Part shown: positions 1-5,560 of the stretch, in pieces
Position numbering within the stretch: the first letter of the stretch is position 1
How the letters are laid out: each line of letters opens with the position of its first letter
Origin: Coriobacteriia bacterium
GTDB taxonomy: Bacteria > Actinomycetota > Coriobacteriia > Anaerosomatales > JAHIQC01
Reading direction: 5' to 3'
Assembly (NCBI GenBank): GCA_030653635.1
Contig: JAURYZ010000194.1
Coordinates: forward strand, 1-5,560
DNA length: 5,560 bases
Position numbers and translations under genes: made by a program
The notes under the pieces: generated by a model
What the model was told of the DNA's origin: nothing
Databases searched by the model: none
What the model saw: only the letters and a program-made list of their open reading frames with translations

Positions 1-1550
1 CTCTCATGTCCTCGATCATGGACGAGATCAGTGTTGTTGACAGCTTGCTTCTGGACCGCAGGCGGGGAGAGATCGCTTTGCTGAAGCAGTACAGTGACGA
101 CGTCTCCCGCACCTCCGTTGTCATCACCGATCTTCAGGAGCAGGGCATGCGTTTGCGCATGCTCCCCGTGTCGACCGTGTTCCAGGCGTTCCCTCGCGCC
201 GTTCGTGATTTGGCGCACTCATTCAAGAAGGACGTCGAGCTCGTGATCGAGGGCGGCGATACGGAACTGGACAAGAAGGTGCTCGAGGAGATCAACGATC
301 CACTCGTGCACATCATGCGCAATGCCGTCGACCACGGCATCGAGTCGCCCGAGGAGCGCATCGCTGCCGGCAAGTCTCCGAGCGGCACCATACGTATGGC
401 GGCTAGGCAAGAGGGTGACCACATAGTGATCGAGGTCTCCGACGACGGGGCCGGCATCGATCCGGAGCGAGTCAAGGCGGCTGCCGTACGCAAAGGGTAC
501 ATCTCCGAGGCGGAAGCCAACTCGATGTCTCCTCGCGAGGCTATCTACCTAATCTTTGAAAAGGGCTTCTCGACCAACGCCATCATCACCGAGATCTCTG
601 GACGTGGTGTCGGCATGGATGTCGTCAGAGAGTTCATTGTCGAGAAGCTCAAGGGCTCACTCGATGTTCAAAGCGAGCTTGGACAAGGCTCATCCTTTCG
701 CCTGACCATACCGCTTACACTCGCCATCATCCGGGCACTCATGTTGCGCGTGGGCGATCAGGTATACGCTATGCCCACGGCATCCATTGCTGAGACGATG
801 CGCATCGCTCCGACCGAGATCATGAAAGTCGAGGGTCGCGAGGTGATCAGGCGCCAGCGTAGAACCATCCCACTGGTCCCGCTCGGCGACATCTTGGGCG
901 TGACGCATTCTTTACACGAGGGCGCGAAGATCCCAATAGCCACCATCAGCTTCTCAGGGCACCGCATGGGATTCATGGTGGACGCGCTTGTGGGAGAGCA
1001 GCAGATTGTCATCAAACCACTGGGCACTCATCTGCTCAAGGTCGATAACGTCGCCGGAGTCACGATTCTGGGAGCCGGGGAGGTCGTGCCGATTCTCAAC
1101 ATCCCCGACCTTATGGCCAATGCGCGACATCGGGCAGGGCAAAGGACAGGCGGCCAGGTGGCAGTCAAGGAGCACTCCGGTCCTCGCAAAATACTTATCT
1201 GCGAAGATTCGTTCACCACGCGTGAGTTAGAGCGTTCGATATTTGAGGCCGCAGGCTATGAGGTCGAAGTTGCTATGGACGGGGCGATGGGTCTTGCCAA
1301 GCTTCGGGAGGGCCTCGAAGTTGATGCGGTCGTTTCCGATGTCCAGATGCCCAACATGACCGGCTTTGAACTCACCAGAGCGATCAAGTCCGACGCTGGA
1401 TTGCGGGATATCCCGGTCATCATCGTCACCTCCTTGGAGCGCGATGAGGAGAAGGCCGAGGGTATCGATGCCGGCGCTGACGCATACATCACCAAGTCCG
1501 TATTCAACCAGGACACGCTGCTTGACACAGTCGAGCGCCTGATCCGCTGA
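1..1550 (+). CDS. cheA: Hybrid chemotaxis histidine kinase CheA with C-terminal receiver domain (5'-partial)
   Basis: This is the core and tail of a CheA-type kinase, which autophosphorylates a histidine in response to receptors and passes the phosphate to response regulators. The frame is open to the left edge (a Leu codon precedes the first visible Met, at 6), and the visible protein begins inside the P3 dimerisation helices, so the true start and the His-containing P1 domain lie upstream. Counting from that Met, the end of P3 spans about 1-65. The P4 ATPase follows, with the N box HIMRNAVDHGIE (102-113), G1 DDGAG (146-150), F box FEKGFST (184-190) and G2 GRGVGMD (199-205). A CheW-like P5 domain spans about 236-372. 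After a hydrophilic linker (about 373-394) comes a receiver domain with acidic pair E400/D401, phospho-acceptor D445 (SDVQMP), T475 and K497. It is cytoplasmic and works with receptors and CheW. The kinase motifs look intact. The fused receiver may act as phosphate sink or output. Family assignment is secure; whether it controls flagella, type IV pili or another output cannot be told here. Confidence 0.95.
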   Translation, partial: LMSSIMDEISVVDSLLLDRRRGEIALLKQYSDDVSRTSVVITDLQEQGMRLRMLPVSTVFQAFPRAVRDLAHSFKKDVELVIEGGDTELDKKVLEEINDPLVHIMRNAVDHGIESPEERIAAGKSPSGTIRMAARQEGDHIVIEVSDDGAGIDPERVKAAAVRKGYISEAEANSMSPREAIYLIFEKGFSTNAIITEISGRGVGMDVVREFIVEKLKGSLDVQSELGQGSSFRLTIPLTLAIIRALMLRVGDQVYAMPTASIAETMRIAPTEIMKVEGREVIRRQRRTIPLVPLGDILGVTHSLHEGAKIPIATISFSGHRMGFMVDALVGEQQIVIKPLGTHLLKVDNVAGVTILGAGEVVPILNIPDLMANARHRAGQRTGGQVAVKEHSGPRKILICEDSFTTRELERSIFEAAGYEVEVAMDGAMGLAKLREGLEVDAVVSDVQMPNMTGFELTRAIKSDAGLRDIPVIIVTSLERDEEKAEGIDAGADAYITKSVFNQDTLLDTVERLIR

Positions 1551-1564
1551 TTTTCGGAGGCCGC

Positions 1565-2623
1565 GTGCCCGTATCGGGTCGCATTCGCGTGCTAATCGTC
1601 GACGATTCGCTCGTCGCGCGCGAGATGCTCACACAGATTCTAGCGACTGATTCCTCGATAGAGGTGGTCGGAGTCGCTCGCGACGGCCAAGAGGCGGTCA
1701 ATGCGGTCGCACAGCTGAAGCCCGACCTAGTGACCATGGACATCCACATGCCCAAGATGGATGGTCTTCTGGCGACCGAGCAAATCATGGCGTATCACCC
1801 GACCCCGATTCTCGTTGTCTCATCGTCTGTACACGGCGAGGGGATGGGACGCGCCTTTGACGCTCTGCAAATGGGCGCTCTAGAGGTAATCAAGAAGCCT
1901 GAGCCGCGAGACTGGGCCGATCTGGAGCGCATTGGTTGCGATGTCATTCGCAAGGTCAAGCTACTCTCCCGCGTCAGCGTGATCACTCACATCAAGGGCA
2001 GAAGGCGCGCCATAGTAGAGCCGGCCGGTTCGACGGTGCGGCACGCTGGTCGATTGGGAGTCCGGTCGATTGTGGCAATCGGGTCATCGACCGGCGGCCC
2101 GAGCGCGCTGCTGAACGTGCTTGGCCGCTTGCCCAAGGAGTTCCCAGTTCCAATCGTCATCGCTCAACACATCTCCGAAGGATTTGTTCCCGGGCTCGTG
2201 GGCTGGCTGGACTCCGGGTGTGCCATACAGGTGCTTGAGGCGGTTGATGGCCAGATTGCACAATCAGGCTGTGCCTACCTTGCTCCCACCGGCTCGAACT
2301 TGGAGATGGATGGCTACGCCATGCGTTTTTCGGCTCCGCAGGCTGGGCAGTTGTACATCCCGTGCGCTGACACGCTATTCATATCGGTGGCAAACAGCTT
2401 CTCGCGCAGCGCCGTTGGGGTCATCCTCACCGGCATGGGGGCGGATGGCGCGGAAGGGCTTAAGCGCTTGCATGATGCCGGCGCGGCCACGATAGGCCAA
2501 GACGAGGAGTCCTCAACGGTCTATGGTATGCCCAAGGCCGCCGCCGATCTGGGTGCCGTGGACGAGGTTCGGACTGTCAATGAGGTCGCTGCGGCAATCG
2601 AGCGCCTCGTCGCCCAGGCCTGA
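1565..2623 (+). CDS. cheB: Chemotaxis response regulator protein-glutamate methylesterase CheB
   Basis: CheB removes methyl groups from, or deamidates, glutamyl/glutaminyl residues of chemoreceptors, giving adaptation; phosphorylation by CheA activates it. The 352-residue protein is full length for the family. The N-terminal receiver (about 7-125) has the acidic pair D13/D14, phospho-acceptor D59 (MDIHMPKMDG) and K110 or K111. A linker rich in Arg/Lys (about 126-165) leads to the esterase domain (about 167-350), with the catalytic triad readable as S175 (GSSTGG), H202 (AQHISEGF) and D294 (TGMGADG). The C-terminal QDEESSTVYGMPKAA stretch is typical of CheB. The GTG start is chosen because GGAGG (1556-1560) sits 4 bases upstream and the receiver begins immediately; the next in-frame Met (residue 22) would cut into the receiver. 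The gene follows the hybrid cheA by 14 bases and is surely co-transcribed. A small oddity is that the common MPPGFT segment after the catalytic His reads ISEGFV, which may affect substrate contact but not catalysis. Confidence 0.96.
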   Translation: MPVSGRIRVLIVDDSLVAREMLTQILATDSSIEVVGVARDGQEAVNAVAQLKPDLVTMDIHMPKMDGLLATEQIMAYHPTPILVVSSSVHGEGMGRAFDALQMGALEVIKKPEPRDWADLERIGCDVIRKVKLLSRVSVITHIKGRRRAIVEPAGSTVRHAGRLGVRSIVAIGSSTGGPSALLNVLGRLPKEFPVPIVIAQHISEGFVPGLVGWLDSGCAIQVLEAVDGQIAQSGCAYLAPTGSNLEMDGYAMRFSAPQAGQLYIPCADTLFISVANSFSRSAVGVILTGMGADGAEGLKRLHDAGAATIGQDEESSTVYGMPKAAADLGAVDEVRTVNEVAAAIERLVAQA

Positions 2624-2892: not shown

Positions 2893-4500
2893 GTGCCACT
2901 AGGCTTGTATGTATCCCGCTGTGGAGGCAAAGTCGACGACGTCATCGACGTGGACGCAGCTATCGCAGGAGTCGCTGCGCGTGCTGCGGTCGTACGTGTT
3001 TTCGATGACCTGTTCGATCCCGCCGCGCAAGAGCGGGTGAGACGCGATGTGGTCGACGCCGAACTCGACGGGGTTGTCCTCGCAGGTCATTCCATCGAGC
3101 GGTACACGAAGAGCCTATCCGGACGCCACCTCATCGAGGGCATCGTCGCGGCAGGCATCAATCCGAACAGGGTCGTGGCAGCAAACATCCTAGAGCAGGT
3201 TGCCTTGGTTCATGCCGACGATCCGGTCGGTGCAACTGCCAAGGCCAAGGCTGTCATTGAGGATGCGTGCCGTAGAGTCGAGCTTTCCGATGAGGCAGAG
3301 GGCATCGTCTGTGAGCCCCGCCGGTCGGTTCTCATCCTCGGAGTCACGACCGAAGCCGTCGTTGCGGCCCAGCGGCTCCTGCAGCTTGGGTTTTCGGTGG
3401 TTCTGGCGGATCGGGGCGAGGGCCTTTCCCATGCTTTGCAGCCGTCGAGCCTCAAGGCCACTTCGGCCTATGTCGCCGGCCATCCCAACGCGGAGTTCGT
3501 CGATGGTGCGCGCATCTCAGATGGTTCGGGTTGGGTCGGCGACTTCGATATCGTGCTGAACTCGGACGCCGGTTCAGCGCACTACAGAGTCGGAGGCATT
3601 CTCTTGGCTCGCCCGGACGTCACGCAGTGGATCGAGGAGCTTCGCGGCCACTTCAAAGTCGATATAGACGAGAACGGGCATGCCCGTTCCATCGATCCGG
3701 ACACTCATCCCTCCGAGACCATCGATCCGGGCATTATGGTCGTTCCCGTACGCGGGAGCGGAGACAGAACGCGCGAGAAGGTCGCGGCCGCAGACTCGGC
3801 GGCGATGGCTCTTGTCCTTCAGCTGTCTCAGCCCACAACGGTCCACTACATGGATGTCTCCGAGGTTGACGAAACTCTATGCGGCGGCTGTGCGTCGTGT
3901 GTGCGCACCTGCGCATTCGGGGCGTGCAGTATAGGCGAGGACGGTTTCTCTCATGTCGATGTTCGCCGTTGCCGCGCATGCGGCAAGTGCGTGGTCTCAT
4001 GTCCGGTGGGCGCAAGAGACATCATCAGCGCGCCACACGATTACCTCATCGAGACGATCAGGGGACTTGCAGACTCCGAGGTCGAAGGGGAAAAGGTCCT
4101 GGGCTTCTTGTGTGCTGGCTGTGGATACCCTGCGGCCGACGGCGCATCCGCCTACGTCGAAGAGAGCGGCGAATCCTATCCCGCATCCTTCTTGCCACTA
4201 CGCATTCCATGCGGTGGGCGGCTGGACACCCTCTACGTCCTGGAGGCCTTCAAGGCCGGCTTTGACGGTGTGACGGTGTTCCGTTGCCGCGAAGGTCACT
4301 GTCATAATCTGATCGGGAACCTCGACATGGACCGCAGGATGAACCTTCTGCGCACCGTCTTGCGCTCGCGCCACCTGGACGATGCCCGCCTGCGAATCGT
4401 GGACATCTCGCCCTTCGAAGGCGAGCGGTTCGTGGAGCAGATCAACGCGGTATATGCCACCTTGGGCTCCCTCACCAACGGCAAGGGAGGCCCGCAATGA
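2893..4500 (+). CDS. mvhD: Condensed HdrA-like protein fused to a 2x[4Fe-4S] ferredoxin and an MvhD domain (hydrogenase iron-sulfur subunit)
   Basis: This 535-residue cytoplasmic protein probably carries electrons between the hydrogenase encoded next and a partner oxidoreductase. Residues 3-135 match the HdrA N-terminal domain (LYVSRCGG at 5-12, ANILEQVALVH at 97-107). Residues 145-172 are a Rossmann-like strand-helix-strand whose FAD glycine motif is reduced to G150-VTTEAV. Residues 278-312 resemble the HdrA segment that closes the FAD domain. Two [4Fe-4S] motifs follow, C330/C333/C336/C340 and C360/C363/C366/C370. The MvhD domain (about 400-520), which in Mvh hydrogenases binds [2Fe-2S], has C407/C410, C440, C465 and C470-H471, all at positions typical of the family. 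HdrA alone is usually about 650 residues, and here there is no cysteine from 141 to 329, so much of the FAD/thioredoxin-reductase-like domain and its cluster appear lost. It heads the operon and overlaps the small-subunit gene by 4 bases (ATGA). MvhD and ferredoxin assignments are firm; loss of flavin binding is inferred. Confidence 0.9.
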   Translation: MPLGLYVSRCGGKVDDVIDVDAAIAGVAARAAVVRVFDDLFDPAAQERVRRDVVDAELDGVVLAGHSIERYTKSLSGRHLIEGIVAAGINPNRVVAANILEQVALVHADDPVGATAKAKAVIEDACRRVELSDEAEGIVCEPRRSVLILGVTTEAVVAAQRLLQLGFSVVLADRGEGLSHALQPSSLKATSAYVAGHPNAEFVDGARISDGSGWVGDFDIVLNSDAGSAHYRVGGILLARPDVTQWIEELRGHFKVDIDENGHARSIDPDTHPSETIDPGIMVVPVRGSGDRTREKVAAADSAAMALVLQLSQPTTVHYMDVSEVDETLCGGCASCVRTCAFGACSIGEDGFSHVDVRRCRACGKCVVSCPVGARDIISAPHDYLIETIRGLADSEVEGEKVLGFLCAGCGYPAADGASAYVEESGESYPASFLPLRIPCGGRLDTLYVLEAFKAGFDGVTVFRCREGHCHNLIGNLDMDRRMNLLRTVLRSRHLDDARLRIVDISPFEGERFVEQINAVYATLGSLTNGKGGPQ

Positions 4501-5381
4501 GCAAGCCAAGATTGGCGCATGTAGTTCTTGGGGGCTGCGAAGGATGCTACGTCTCGCTTCTTGACGCCGGAGCGGCGCTGCTGCCTCTCCTTGAGGCCGT
4601 GGATCTTGTGGCTTCACCTCTTGTGGCCGAAGACGACCTGACTGATTGCGACGTGTGCCTCGTAGAGGGTGCGGTCACCACGGAGCGAGACATCGAGAAA
4701 CTGCTTCAAGCTCGCAAGGCGAGCCGTACATTGGTTGCTGTCGGTTCGTGCGCCGTGCTCGGTGGCATCGGTGGATTACGCAACCTCTCGACGCGCGCTG
4801 AGGTGCTCGATACGGCACTCGGGGTCGGGGAGCGACCGACCGGCGTGCCGGAGCTCACAGCGCGCGTGCAGCCGATCTCGGACTTCGTGACCGTGGACAT
4901 GTCCGTACCGGGCTGTGCGCCCGAGACCGAGACCCTGCTCGAGGCGCTGACTGCAGCGCTTGAGGGTCGCGATTGGGCCCTGCCACGCCGCAACATGTGC
5001 GACGAGTGCGGTCGCACCAAGGTCAAGCTCCTCGAGCATTCCTCGGAGTTCGTCTCTGATTCGGTCTACGCGATCATGGAACTCGACGAGATCGATCCGG
5101 AACTCTGCTTCCTTGAACAGGGTGTCATTTGCATGGGCCCGATGACTCGCGAAGGTTGCGGCGCCCGCTGCACCGTCGCGGGTGTGCCTTGTCGTGGATG
5201 CCAAGGCCCGAGCCGTCCAGAGTTCGAGCAGGGCGGCAAGATGGTCGATGCTCTGGCGGCGGTACTGCCTGCAGGCGCGATCATGTTCATGGACGACTTA
5301 GTGGGCACTGGATACCGATTCAGCATGCCGATCTCGATATTTCCCACAATCTATGACCACGGAGGTGATGACGATGAGTGA
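4497..5381 (+). CDS. mvhG: Cytoplasmic [NiFe] hydrogenase small subunit, MvhG type (group 3)
   Basis: The small subunit carries the iron-sulfur chain that takes electrons from the NiFe centre of the large subunit to the MvhD domain. The 294-residue protein has no Tat signal, fitting a soluble group 3 enzyme. The proximal cluster ligands are C14 and C17 (GGCEGC), C85 (GSCAVLGG) and C140 (PGCAPE). Eight more cysteines, C168/C171 (MCDECGR), C204, C212, C221, C225, C232 and C235 (GCGARC, VPCRGC), suit two further [4Fe-4S] clusters. The stretch CFLEQGVICMGPMTREGCGARC is characteristic of MvhG/VhuG-like subunits. The ATG start overlaps the previous stop (ATGA), with GGGAGG (4485-4490) six bases upstream, indicating translational coupling. 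The last residues, an acidic DDDE tail, are encoded by the bases that also serve as ribosome binding site and start of the next gene. Related soluble hydrogenases (groups 3b-3d) share the fold, but the adjacent MvhD domain favours 3c. Confidence 0.94.
   Translation: MSKPRLAHVVLGGCEGCYVSLLDAGAALLPLLEAVDLVASPLVAEDDLTDCDVCLVEGAVTTERDIEKLLQARKASRTLVAVGSCAVLGGIGGLRNLSTRAEVLDTALGVGERPTGVPELTARVQPISDFVTVDMSVPGCAPETETLLEALTAALEGRDWALPRRNMCDECGRTKVKLLEHSSEFVSDSVYAIMELDEIDPELCFLEQGVICMGPMTREGCGARCTVAGVPCRGCQGPSRPEFEQGGKMVDALAAVLPAGAIMFMDDLVGTGYRFSMPISIFPTIYDHGGDDDE
5361..5369 (+). promoter_or_regulatory. Very strong Shine-Dalgarno for the hydrogenase large subunit, inside mvhG
   Basis: GGAGGTGAT is a nine-base match to the usual anti-Shine-Dalgarno end of bacterial 16S rRNA. 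It sits inside the last codons of the small-subunit gene. The GGAGG core is 8 bases from ATG 5374, which decides that start over the in-frame ATG at 5368, which overlaps the site itself. Confidence 0.7.
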
Positions 5382-5560
5382 AGTCATCCACCTTCCAGAC
5401 ACCAAGCGGATCGAAGGCCATGGGCGTATCTCGTTGTTCCTGGGCGATGACGGCCTTGTGCAGGATGCCCATTTCGAGATAACGGAGTTCCGCGGTTTCG
5501 AGAAGTTTCTGCAGGACCGGATGATCTGGGAGATGCCGCTTATCACAAGCCGTATCTGCG
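5374..5560 (+). CDS. mvhA: Cytoplasmic [NiFe] hydrogenase large subunit, MvhA type (3'-partial)
   Basis: This is the N-terminal 62 residues of the catalytic subunit, which holds the NiFe(CN)2CO centre and splits or forms H2. It shows the family opening KRIEGHGRI (11-19), the conserved FRGFEKFL (39-46) and the start of the L1 motif, SRIC (59-62), where C62 is the first of the four cysteines that bind the active-site metals. The window ends at this residue, so the second L1 cysteine and the C-terminal DPCxxC pair are outside. The start at 5374 overlaps the small-subunit gene by 8 bases and is set by the strong Shine-Dalgarno. Maturation proteases and Hyp genes are not in view. Assignment to MvhA rather than HoxH or other group 3 relatives rests on the FRGFEKFL signature and on the MvhD-MvhG context. 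Confidence 0.93.
   Translation, partial: MSEVIHLPDTKRIEGHGRISLFLGDDGLVQDAHFEITEFRGFEKFLQDRMIWEMPLITSRIC

Follow-up and report, generated by a model that had tools for sequence, protein, structure and literature searches.

A short HdrA-MvhD fusion lacking the HdrA flavin signature, a predicted flavin-free electron wire for MvhAG hydrogenases

Contig JAURYZ010000194.1 of a Coriobacteriia metagenome-assembled genome (MAG; GCA_030653635.1), analysed here over its complete length of 5,560 bases (the window), encodes a 535-residue protein in which a shortened HdrA is fused to MvhD, followed by the genes of an MvhAG-type hydrogenase. This mini-HdrA-MvhD lacks the flavin signature of HdrA and keeps the cysteines of its C-terminal iron-sulfur domains. 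We predict that it is probably a flavin-free iron-sulfur wire that would connect the MvhAG hydrogenase to a single acceptor, without bifurcation. The protein belongs to a large, old and conserved family that is not peculiar to one genome.

Loss of the flavin signature from the short HdrA

Aligned with the HdrA of Methanothermococcus thermolithotrophicus (5odc_A), residues 3-222 of the protein correspond to residues 6-234 and residues 268-376 to 522-633; with 8rvu_a, residues 3-222 correspond to 14-242 and 248-377 to 509-637. About 240 residues of the solved HdrA structures, the second dinucleotide half together with the inserted ferredoxin domain, are absent. E356 and K409, which lie near the flavin N5 and have been proposed as marks of bifurcating HdrAs (PMC12054007; papers cited by PMC number are represented here by excerpts), both fall within the absent stretch, 235-521 of 5odc_A.

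In a set of 16 short proteins and 12 long HdrAs from the same phylum, GxGxxG, the GG motif and the cysteines of the YxC and ACSP positions occur in all 12 long HdrAs and in none of the short forms. S8, F41, H66 and V103 occupy cysteine positions of the 12 long HdrAs, and Cys10 is retained. From the FAD (flavin adenine dinucleotide) signature the 535-residue protein keeps D173, at the acidic end of strand 2, but neither the second glycine nor GG. Pfam recognises MvhD (FlpD) at residues 402-526 (E 1.9e-28) and 4Fe-4S motifs at 324-375, and finds no flavin or dinucleotide domain in the protein even at E<=1; the best NCBIfam match is HdrA2, at 204 bits against a cut-off of 1100.

The predicted structure (predicted local distance difference test, pLDDT, 89) keeps the HdrA outline with the FAD-half fold only, and this fold is predicted with good confidence. 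In a fold search, the model matches thioredoxin reductases at both of their ends, residues 143-316 lying on residues 5-307 of 5mh4, for example. Because the match covers both ends, as an FAD half would, we set aside a reading of the remnant as a nicotinamide adenine dinucleotide (NAD)-binding domain, to which a Pyr_redox_2 match at 142-257 in locus L081 had pointed.

At the excision point, three long HdrAs have 289-310 residues, nine have 195-200 and the 16 short forms have 46-51. HdrAs without the inserted ferredoxin domain therefore exist and, given long forms of two sizes, might resemble an intermediate toward the short form. Loci L083-L087 encode long HdrA-MvhD fusions of this kind (725-762 residues, with 199-200 at the excision point and without the inserted ferredoxin domain), which in L083, L084, L085 and L087 adjoin two-domain HdrAs of ~1,000 residues.

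Conservation of the iron-sulfur wire in the family

A search at E<=1e-3 gave 174 homologues; the 120 among them that were listed are mostly full-length, at ~530 residues, and lengths in the family are about 520-545. We aligned 78 sequences, namely 76 of these 120, the window protein and one copy from L018. Fourteen cysteines are invariant in all 78 (330, 333, 336, 340, 345, 360, 363, 366, 370, 407, 410, 440, 465 and 470): eight suit a pair of 4Fe-4S clusters, another five belong to MvhD, and Cys345 is an additional one. Of the N-terminal pair, Cys10 is kept in 67, most other N-terminal cluster cysteines are gone, and C126 and C140 are conserved in nine sequences and in under 10%, respectively. 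GxGxxG is absent throughout, its second glycine being Thr, Ser or Asn in 78/78; G150 is invariant, position 155 is Gly in 45 and position 173 is Asp in 75.

With divergent queries we obtained 236 distant members at E<=1e-20, and the following counts refer to the 120 matches listed. Their source labels include Aquicultor (Actinomycetota), Thermodesulfovibrionales/Nitrospirota, Firmicutes including Phosphitispora fastidiosa, KSB1 and Planctomycetes. GxGxxG is missing in 119, all 120 have the eight ferredoxin cysteines and four of the five MvhD cysteines, Cys410 is present in 109 and Cys345 in 20. Since six members keep at least three of the four N-terminal cysteine positions and yet have no GxGxxG, the loss of the flavin signature was wider than that of the N-terminal cysteines. 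In a tree of 28 rows with the MvhD part removed, a branch supported at 100/100 divides the 16 short forms from the other rows, long HdrA-MvhD among them.

These results largely agree with an earlier sequence-only reading of the window, which had described a shortened HdrA-MvhD of 535 residues with a degenerate glycine motif (G150-VTTEAV), no cysteine between C140 and C330, and intact ferredoxin motifs and MvhD cysteines. The shortening is real and shared by the homologues, the motif is as described, and cysteines 10, 126 and 140 are indeed followed only by 330. Its central proposal, that the flavin signature was lost and the wire spared, is upheld by the sequence, by family conservation and by the long HdrA controls. 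Two of its statements need amending. GHS (65-67) and EQV (101-103) do stand where it expected the ACSP- and REQC-type cysteines, but the latter cysteine is not universal among structurally solved flavin HdrAs, being absent in the M. marburgensis and 9sfi chains; and the HdrA-specific clusters have lost most of their N-terminal ligands, but Cys10 is mostly kept.

Distribution and operon

Among 197 genomes of the class, we found 13 full copies, one truncated at the edge of its contig and another split over two contigs; all 15 carriers belong to the window's order (69 genomes). A survey of 396 genomes of the phylum at stricter settings, which included the window's own genome and some class genomes, added five genomes with full copies (two in G476) and two with pieces. 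Relatives found in the homologue search are labelled Coriobacteriia/Actinomycetota.

We compared 21 loci from members of the Actinomycetota. In 20 of them mvhG and mvhA come after the fusion gene, the remaining locus being a contig-end piece; the mvhG/mvhA frames are broken in L080 and L082. The recurrent order is mini-HdrA-MvhD, mvhG, mvhA and an open reading frame (ORF) of 81 codons, the last present in 19/20. As far as the contigs reach, the 13 loci of the order have cheB on one side of the operon and, on the other, an opposite-strand gene followed by what we take to be murI. The opposite-strand gene looks like a hydrogenase maturation protease, with no Pfam match at 1e-3. Within the operon, none of the 21 loci has a match to the HdrBC or GltD references or to a flavoprotein.

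The hydrogenase carries marks of group 3c, namely the NiFe motifs in the MvhA of relatives (the window's mvhA is cut) and the MvhG cysteines. Both MvhA motifs, L1 RxCGxCxxxH and L2 DPCxxCxxH, match by pattern in 17/20 loci, with K replacing R of the first in L088, and 12 MvhG cysteines are conserved in all eight copies compared. In L077 (G476, 6240-13384) we observed a tandem second mini-HdrA-MvhD and MvhG with no second MvhA match; this second mini-HdrA (L077b) lacks even Gly150.

The 81-residue protein, hitherto undescribed and encoded 3' of mvhA (L009:13901-14146), is modelled as four helices (pLDDT 93.8). Its LE..FG and MWG motifs are invariant in 27 aligned sequences, and it has no match in Pfam (1e-3), NCBIfam (1e-10) or PDB folds (E<=0.001). 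The ORF occurs in 14 of the 15 carriers of the order (the window's contig ends before it) versus 1 of the 54 other genomes. That one, G131, has cheB, the 81-residue ORF and murI in L094 (879-4207) with the hydrogenase genes absent. Apparently it lost the operon and retained the small ORF; on other contigs, G131 carries mvhA next to a long HdrA, and mvhG next to mvhD.

Proposed electron route

In Mvh/Elp-Hdr complexes, the MvhD/ElpC 2Fe-2S cluster receives electrons from the HdrA clusters and passes them, by an unknown mechanism, to the bifurcating FAD, and the MvhD/ElpC arm is mobile (PMC12350162). The short protein would retain the parts of this arm and lose its FAD destination; because the FAD-site signature is absent, the arm would dock on another partner, with the FAD-domain remnant serving as a scaffold. 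We infer a reversible route from H2 through the Ni-Fe site of MvhA and three cubane clusters of MvhG to the two ferredoxin-domain cubanes, the [2Fe-2S] cluster of MvhD and the acceptor. As nothing else able to accept electrons recurs with the operon, we favour ferredoxin or a ferredoxin-like partner, in either direction.

Extending this to the family, we see an even chance that it represents a widespread new group 3c-type subclass without bifurcation, found in several phyla, in which an HdrA without flavin and outlet domains and an 81-residue helical partner would form an H2:ferredoxin (or H2:partner) oxidoreductase. We found no description of a flavin-less short HdrA-MvhD in the parts of the open-licence literature searched, supplements lying outside that scope.

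Several observations weigh against a flavin-free wire. Transfer from H2 to ferredoxin is uphill at low H2, for which reason we leave the direction open. The structural model shows no cofactor. Among the distant members listed, P0158 retains all three glycines, P0230 was counted with a GG-like pattern and 13/120 have a precomputed Pyr_redox_2 domain; L081 and L078 also match Pyr_redox_2 (3e-8 and 1e-3). Given these glycines and matches, some family members may still bind a dinucleotide. Unlinked HdrB-like genes (252-273 bits) occur in 57 of the 69 genomes of the order, 12 of the 15 carriers among them. E356 or K409 is also missing from 15-22% of archaeal HdrAs (PMC12054007). The Cys197-type cysteine, which ligates the N-terminal cluster of the partner (PMC9012536), is absent from the short forms but also from 9 of the 12 long controls, these nine being HdrA-MvhD and two-domain proteins. 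Since they share it, the absence of the inserted ferredoxin domain and the Cys197 loop does not by itself argue decisively against a flavin-bifurcating HdrA.

Alternative explanations and possible partners

The strongest alternative, which we nevertheless regard as unlikely, places the flavin of a bifurcating or confurcating unit on an unlinked partner, with the mini-HdrA as the donor arm. Candidate partners are a GltD-ferredoxin-MvhD/MetVF module beside carbon monoxide dehydrogenase/acetyl-CoA synthase (CODH/ACS), an Nfn-like protein and an unlinked HdrBC-type complex. The CODH/ACS gamma subunit (AcsC) is found in 9/15 carriers of the order versus 6/54 other genomes (Fisher p 2.5e-4, uncorrected for kinship), and frames of 663-751 residues that partly match MvhD and share a contig with AcsC, in 8/15 versus 6/54; we take these frames to be GltD-MvhD fusions from a domain scan of the window genome's own copy. 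GltD-like matches also lie on the contig of the operon, outside it: L080 and L082 have them ~3.6-3.8 kb upstream, and in L088 the match is on the opposite strand at a distance of 1.8 kb, preceded by a gene that looks Nfn-like. Moreover, HdrA paralogues may form heterodimers in which one complements the other (PMC9012536), and unlinked HdrB-like genes are common. However, six of the 15 carriers, including G043, G067 and G069 (95-100% complete), have neither an AcsC match nor a second MvhD match. The HdrB-like matches all fall below the cut-off and are present with or without the short HdrA, and the HdrB type that adjoins a long HdrA was seen only in G040 and G079.

Searching with the long flavin HdrA of G040, we found such a protein in G040 only among the 15 carriers of the order. 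The other 14, which include the window's own genome (64% complete) and seven genomes that are 92-100% complete, gave no flavin HdrA: 12 match through the short protein itself and G103 and G123 not at all at 1e-8. We therefore rejected, for these 14, the idea that the short protein serves as an arm for some unlinked flavin HdrA of its own cell. Outside the order, five of seven carriers have long HdrA-type frames (G352, G215, G274, G524 and G420, the last of 1,035 residues) and none was found in G476 and G516; such an arm is possible in these five and in G040. The sequence-only reading had offered both a non-bifurcating adaptor and a flavin on another subunit. The former fits best, and the latter is weakened by the lack of a flavoprotein match in the operons of the 21 loci and of another HdrA in 14 of the 15 carriers of the order.

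Less probable still, to our minds, is a minimal flavoprotein whose remnant domain has an atypical mode of FAD or NAD(P) binding. The confidently predicted FAD-half fold, the invariant G150 with its frequent companions at positions 155 and 173, and the Pyr_redox_2 scores of some divergent members are in its favour; the substituted second glycine of all 78 close members aligned, the missing GG motif and second half of the flavin enzyme, and the paralogue L077b are against it. Finally, erosion, chimerism or misassembly of the gene can be dismissed. The window is indeed an entire contig from a fragmented MAG, but there are 174 homologues, genomes from many families and named public records show equal length and architecture, and the cysteines are invariant.

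Three loci of the window's own genome deserve mention. In L035 (contig C8, 1884-6792), the CODH/ACS gamma gene is followed by a 665-residue GltD-like/ferredoxin/MvhD fusion and then by genes that are presumably MetV and MetF, possibly forming an NAD(P)H- or MvhD-linked methylene-tetrahydrofolate reductase. L037 (C180, 440-4570) has an HdrB-HdrC fusion near a ferredoxin/glutamate-synthase-domain protein; this fusion is the genome's own instance of the HdrB-like matches common in the order. L090 (C237, 4034-6892) encodes an exported-looking [NiFe]-hydrogenase with a small subunit resembling twin-arginine translocation (Tat) substrates and a CxxCH protein nearby, features for which we dropped an assignment to the energy-converting group 4. 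Large subunits of the L090 type, picked by eye among the matches listed, occur in at least 11/15 carriers and at least 8/54 others (uncorrected for kinship), and this enzyme and the mini-HdrA hydrogenase could possibly be an H2 cycling pair.

Features of the window

The window is a complete contig of a MAG of 304 contigs. We set the mvhA start at the ATG at 5374, overlapping the end of mvhG, whereas the ORF tool gives 5353. The upstream cheA and cheB are probably merely the insertion neighbourhood of the operon.

Table 1. Features of the 5,560-base window
Feature	Position	Strand	Basis
mini-HdrA fused to MvhD, 535 residues	2893..4500	+	ORF call, GTG start, Pfam, NCBIfam, HdrA alignment, same-length homologues
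N-terminal HdrA domain, residues 1-138	2893..3306	+	alignment to 8rvu/5odc HdrA; 16 short vs 12 long
Thioredoxin-reductase FAD-half remnant, residues 143-317; single Rossmann-like domain, degenerate flavin motifs	3319..3843	+	model, short/long comparison
Degenerate glycine motif GVTTEA, residues 150-155	3340..3357	+	family alignments
Excision point; long HdrAs insert 195-310 residues, short forms 45-51	3556..3708	+	alignment
C-terminal 2x[4Fe-4S] ferredoxin domain, residues 325-377; 8 invariant ligand-type Cys + Cys345	3865..4023	+	Pfam, alignment
MvhD/FlpD domain, residues 402-526; 5 Cys invariant in close family	4096..4470	+	Pfam, alignment
mvhG/vhuG, hydrogenase small subunit; start overlaps HdrA-MvhD stop	4497..5381	+	ORF call, NCBIfam
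mvhA/vhuA, large subunit, 5' end; contig ends just inside first active-site motif	5374..5560	+	ORF call, NCBIfam
cheA (cut) and cheB, upstream of operon	3-2623		position conserved in order

Relation to known systems and implications

With the HdrA of HdrABC-MvhAGD (5odc, 8rvu) the short form shares the N-terminal domain, the outline of the FAD half, the C-terminal 2x[4Fe-4S] domain and the gene link to MvhAG; it differs in lacking the E356/K409 region, the inserted ferredoxin domain, most N-terminal cysteines, the Cys197 loop and the flavin motifs, and its operon has no hdrB/hdrC. QmoB, an HdrA-like protein with a C-terminal FlpD/MvhD-like part, shares the fusion type and differs in being a flavoprotein of a membrane complex with QmoA/C. 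HdrA2/type Ia HdrA-MvhD (NF040770) is the best NCBIfam match and has the same C-terminal fusion, but at about 725-780 residues it is longer, and the short form, with an incomplete thioredoxin-reductase domain and no flavin signature, scores far below the cut-off; HdrA2/type Ia carries one FAD, four Fe4S4 and one Fe2S2 (PMC5296606). The hydrogenase resembles group 3c MvhAG/VhuAG, with VhuG (window, 200 bits) and VhuA (L009, 394 bits) as best NCBIfam matches. Unlike group 3c, these scores lie under the curated cut-offs (450 and 800), the MvhA L2 motif reads AHDPCLSCATH rather than AYDPC in the three loci of the order checked (L064, L066 and L070), HdrBC is missing from the operon and a flavin HdrA from 14/15 carriers of the order. 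Judged by sequence, the mini-HdrA fails the flavin features of HdrA and HdrA2, and we regard the system as a novel variation on group 3c-type hydrogenases.

We guess that the window's order is the OPB41 lineage, whose first isolates have a group 1i hydrogenase and, in one strain, also group 3b; the excerpts of that report make no mention of Hdr or Mvh (PMC9686372). Group 3c is mentioned in related clades (PMC7325909).

Group 3c hydrogenases are commonly taken as a sign of HdrABC-linked bifurcation, and in one survey of metagenomes the presence of MvhAGD led to HdrABC being assumed present too (PMC6085437). If the family is flavin-free, the H2 metabolism of many uncultured anaerobes would have been mis-assigned. 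HdrA would then offer a natural experiment, in which the same donor arm occurs with and without a bifurcating site, and the parts of HdrA needed for docking and for bifurcation would become testable.
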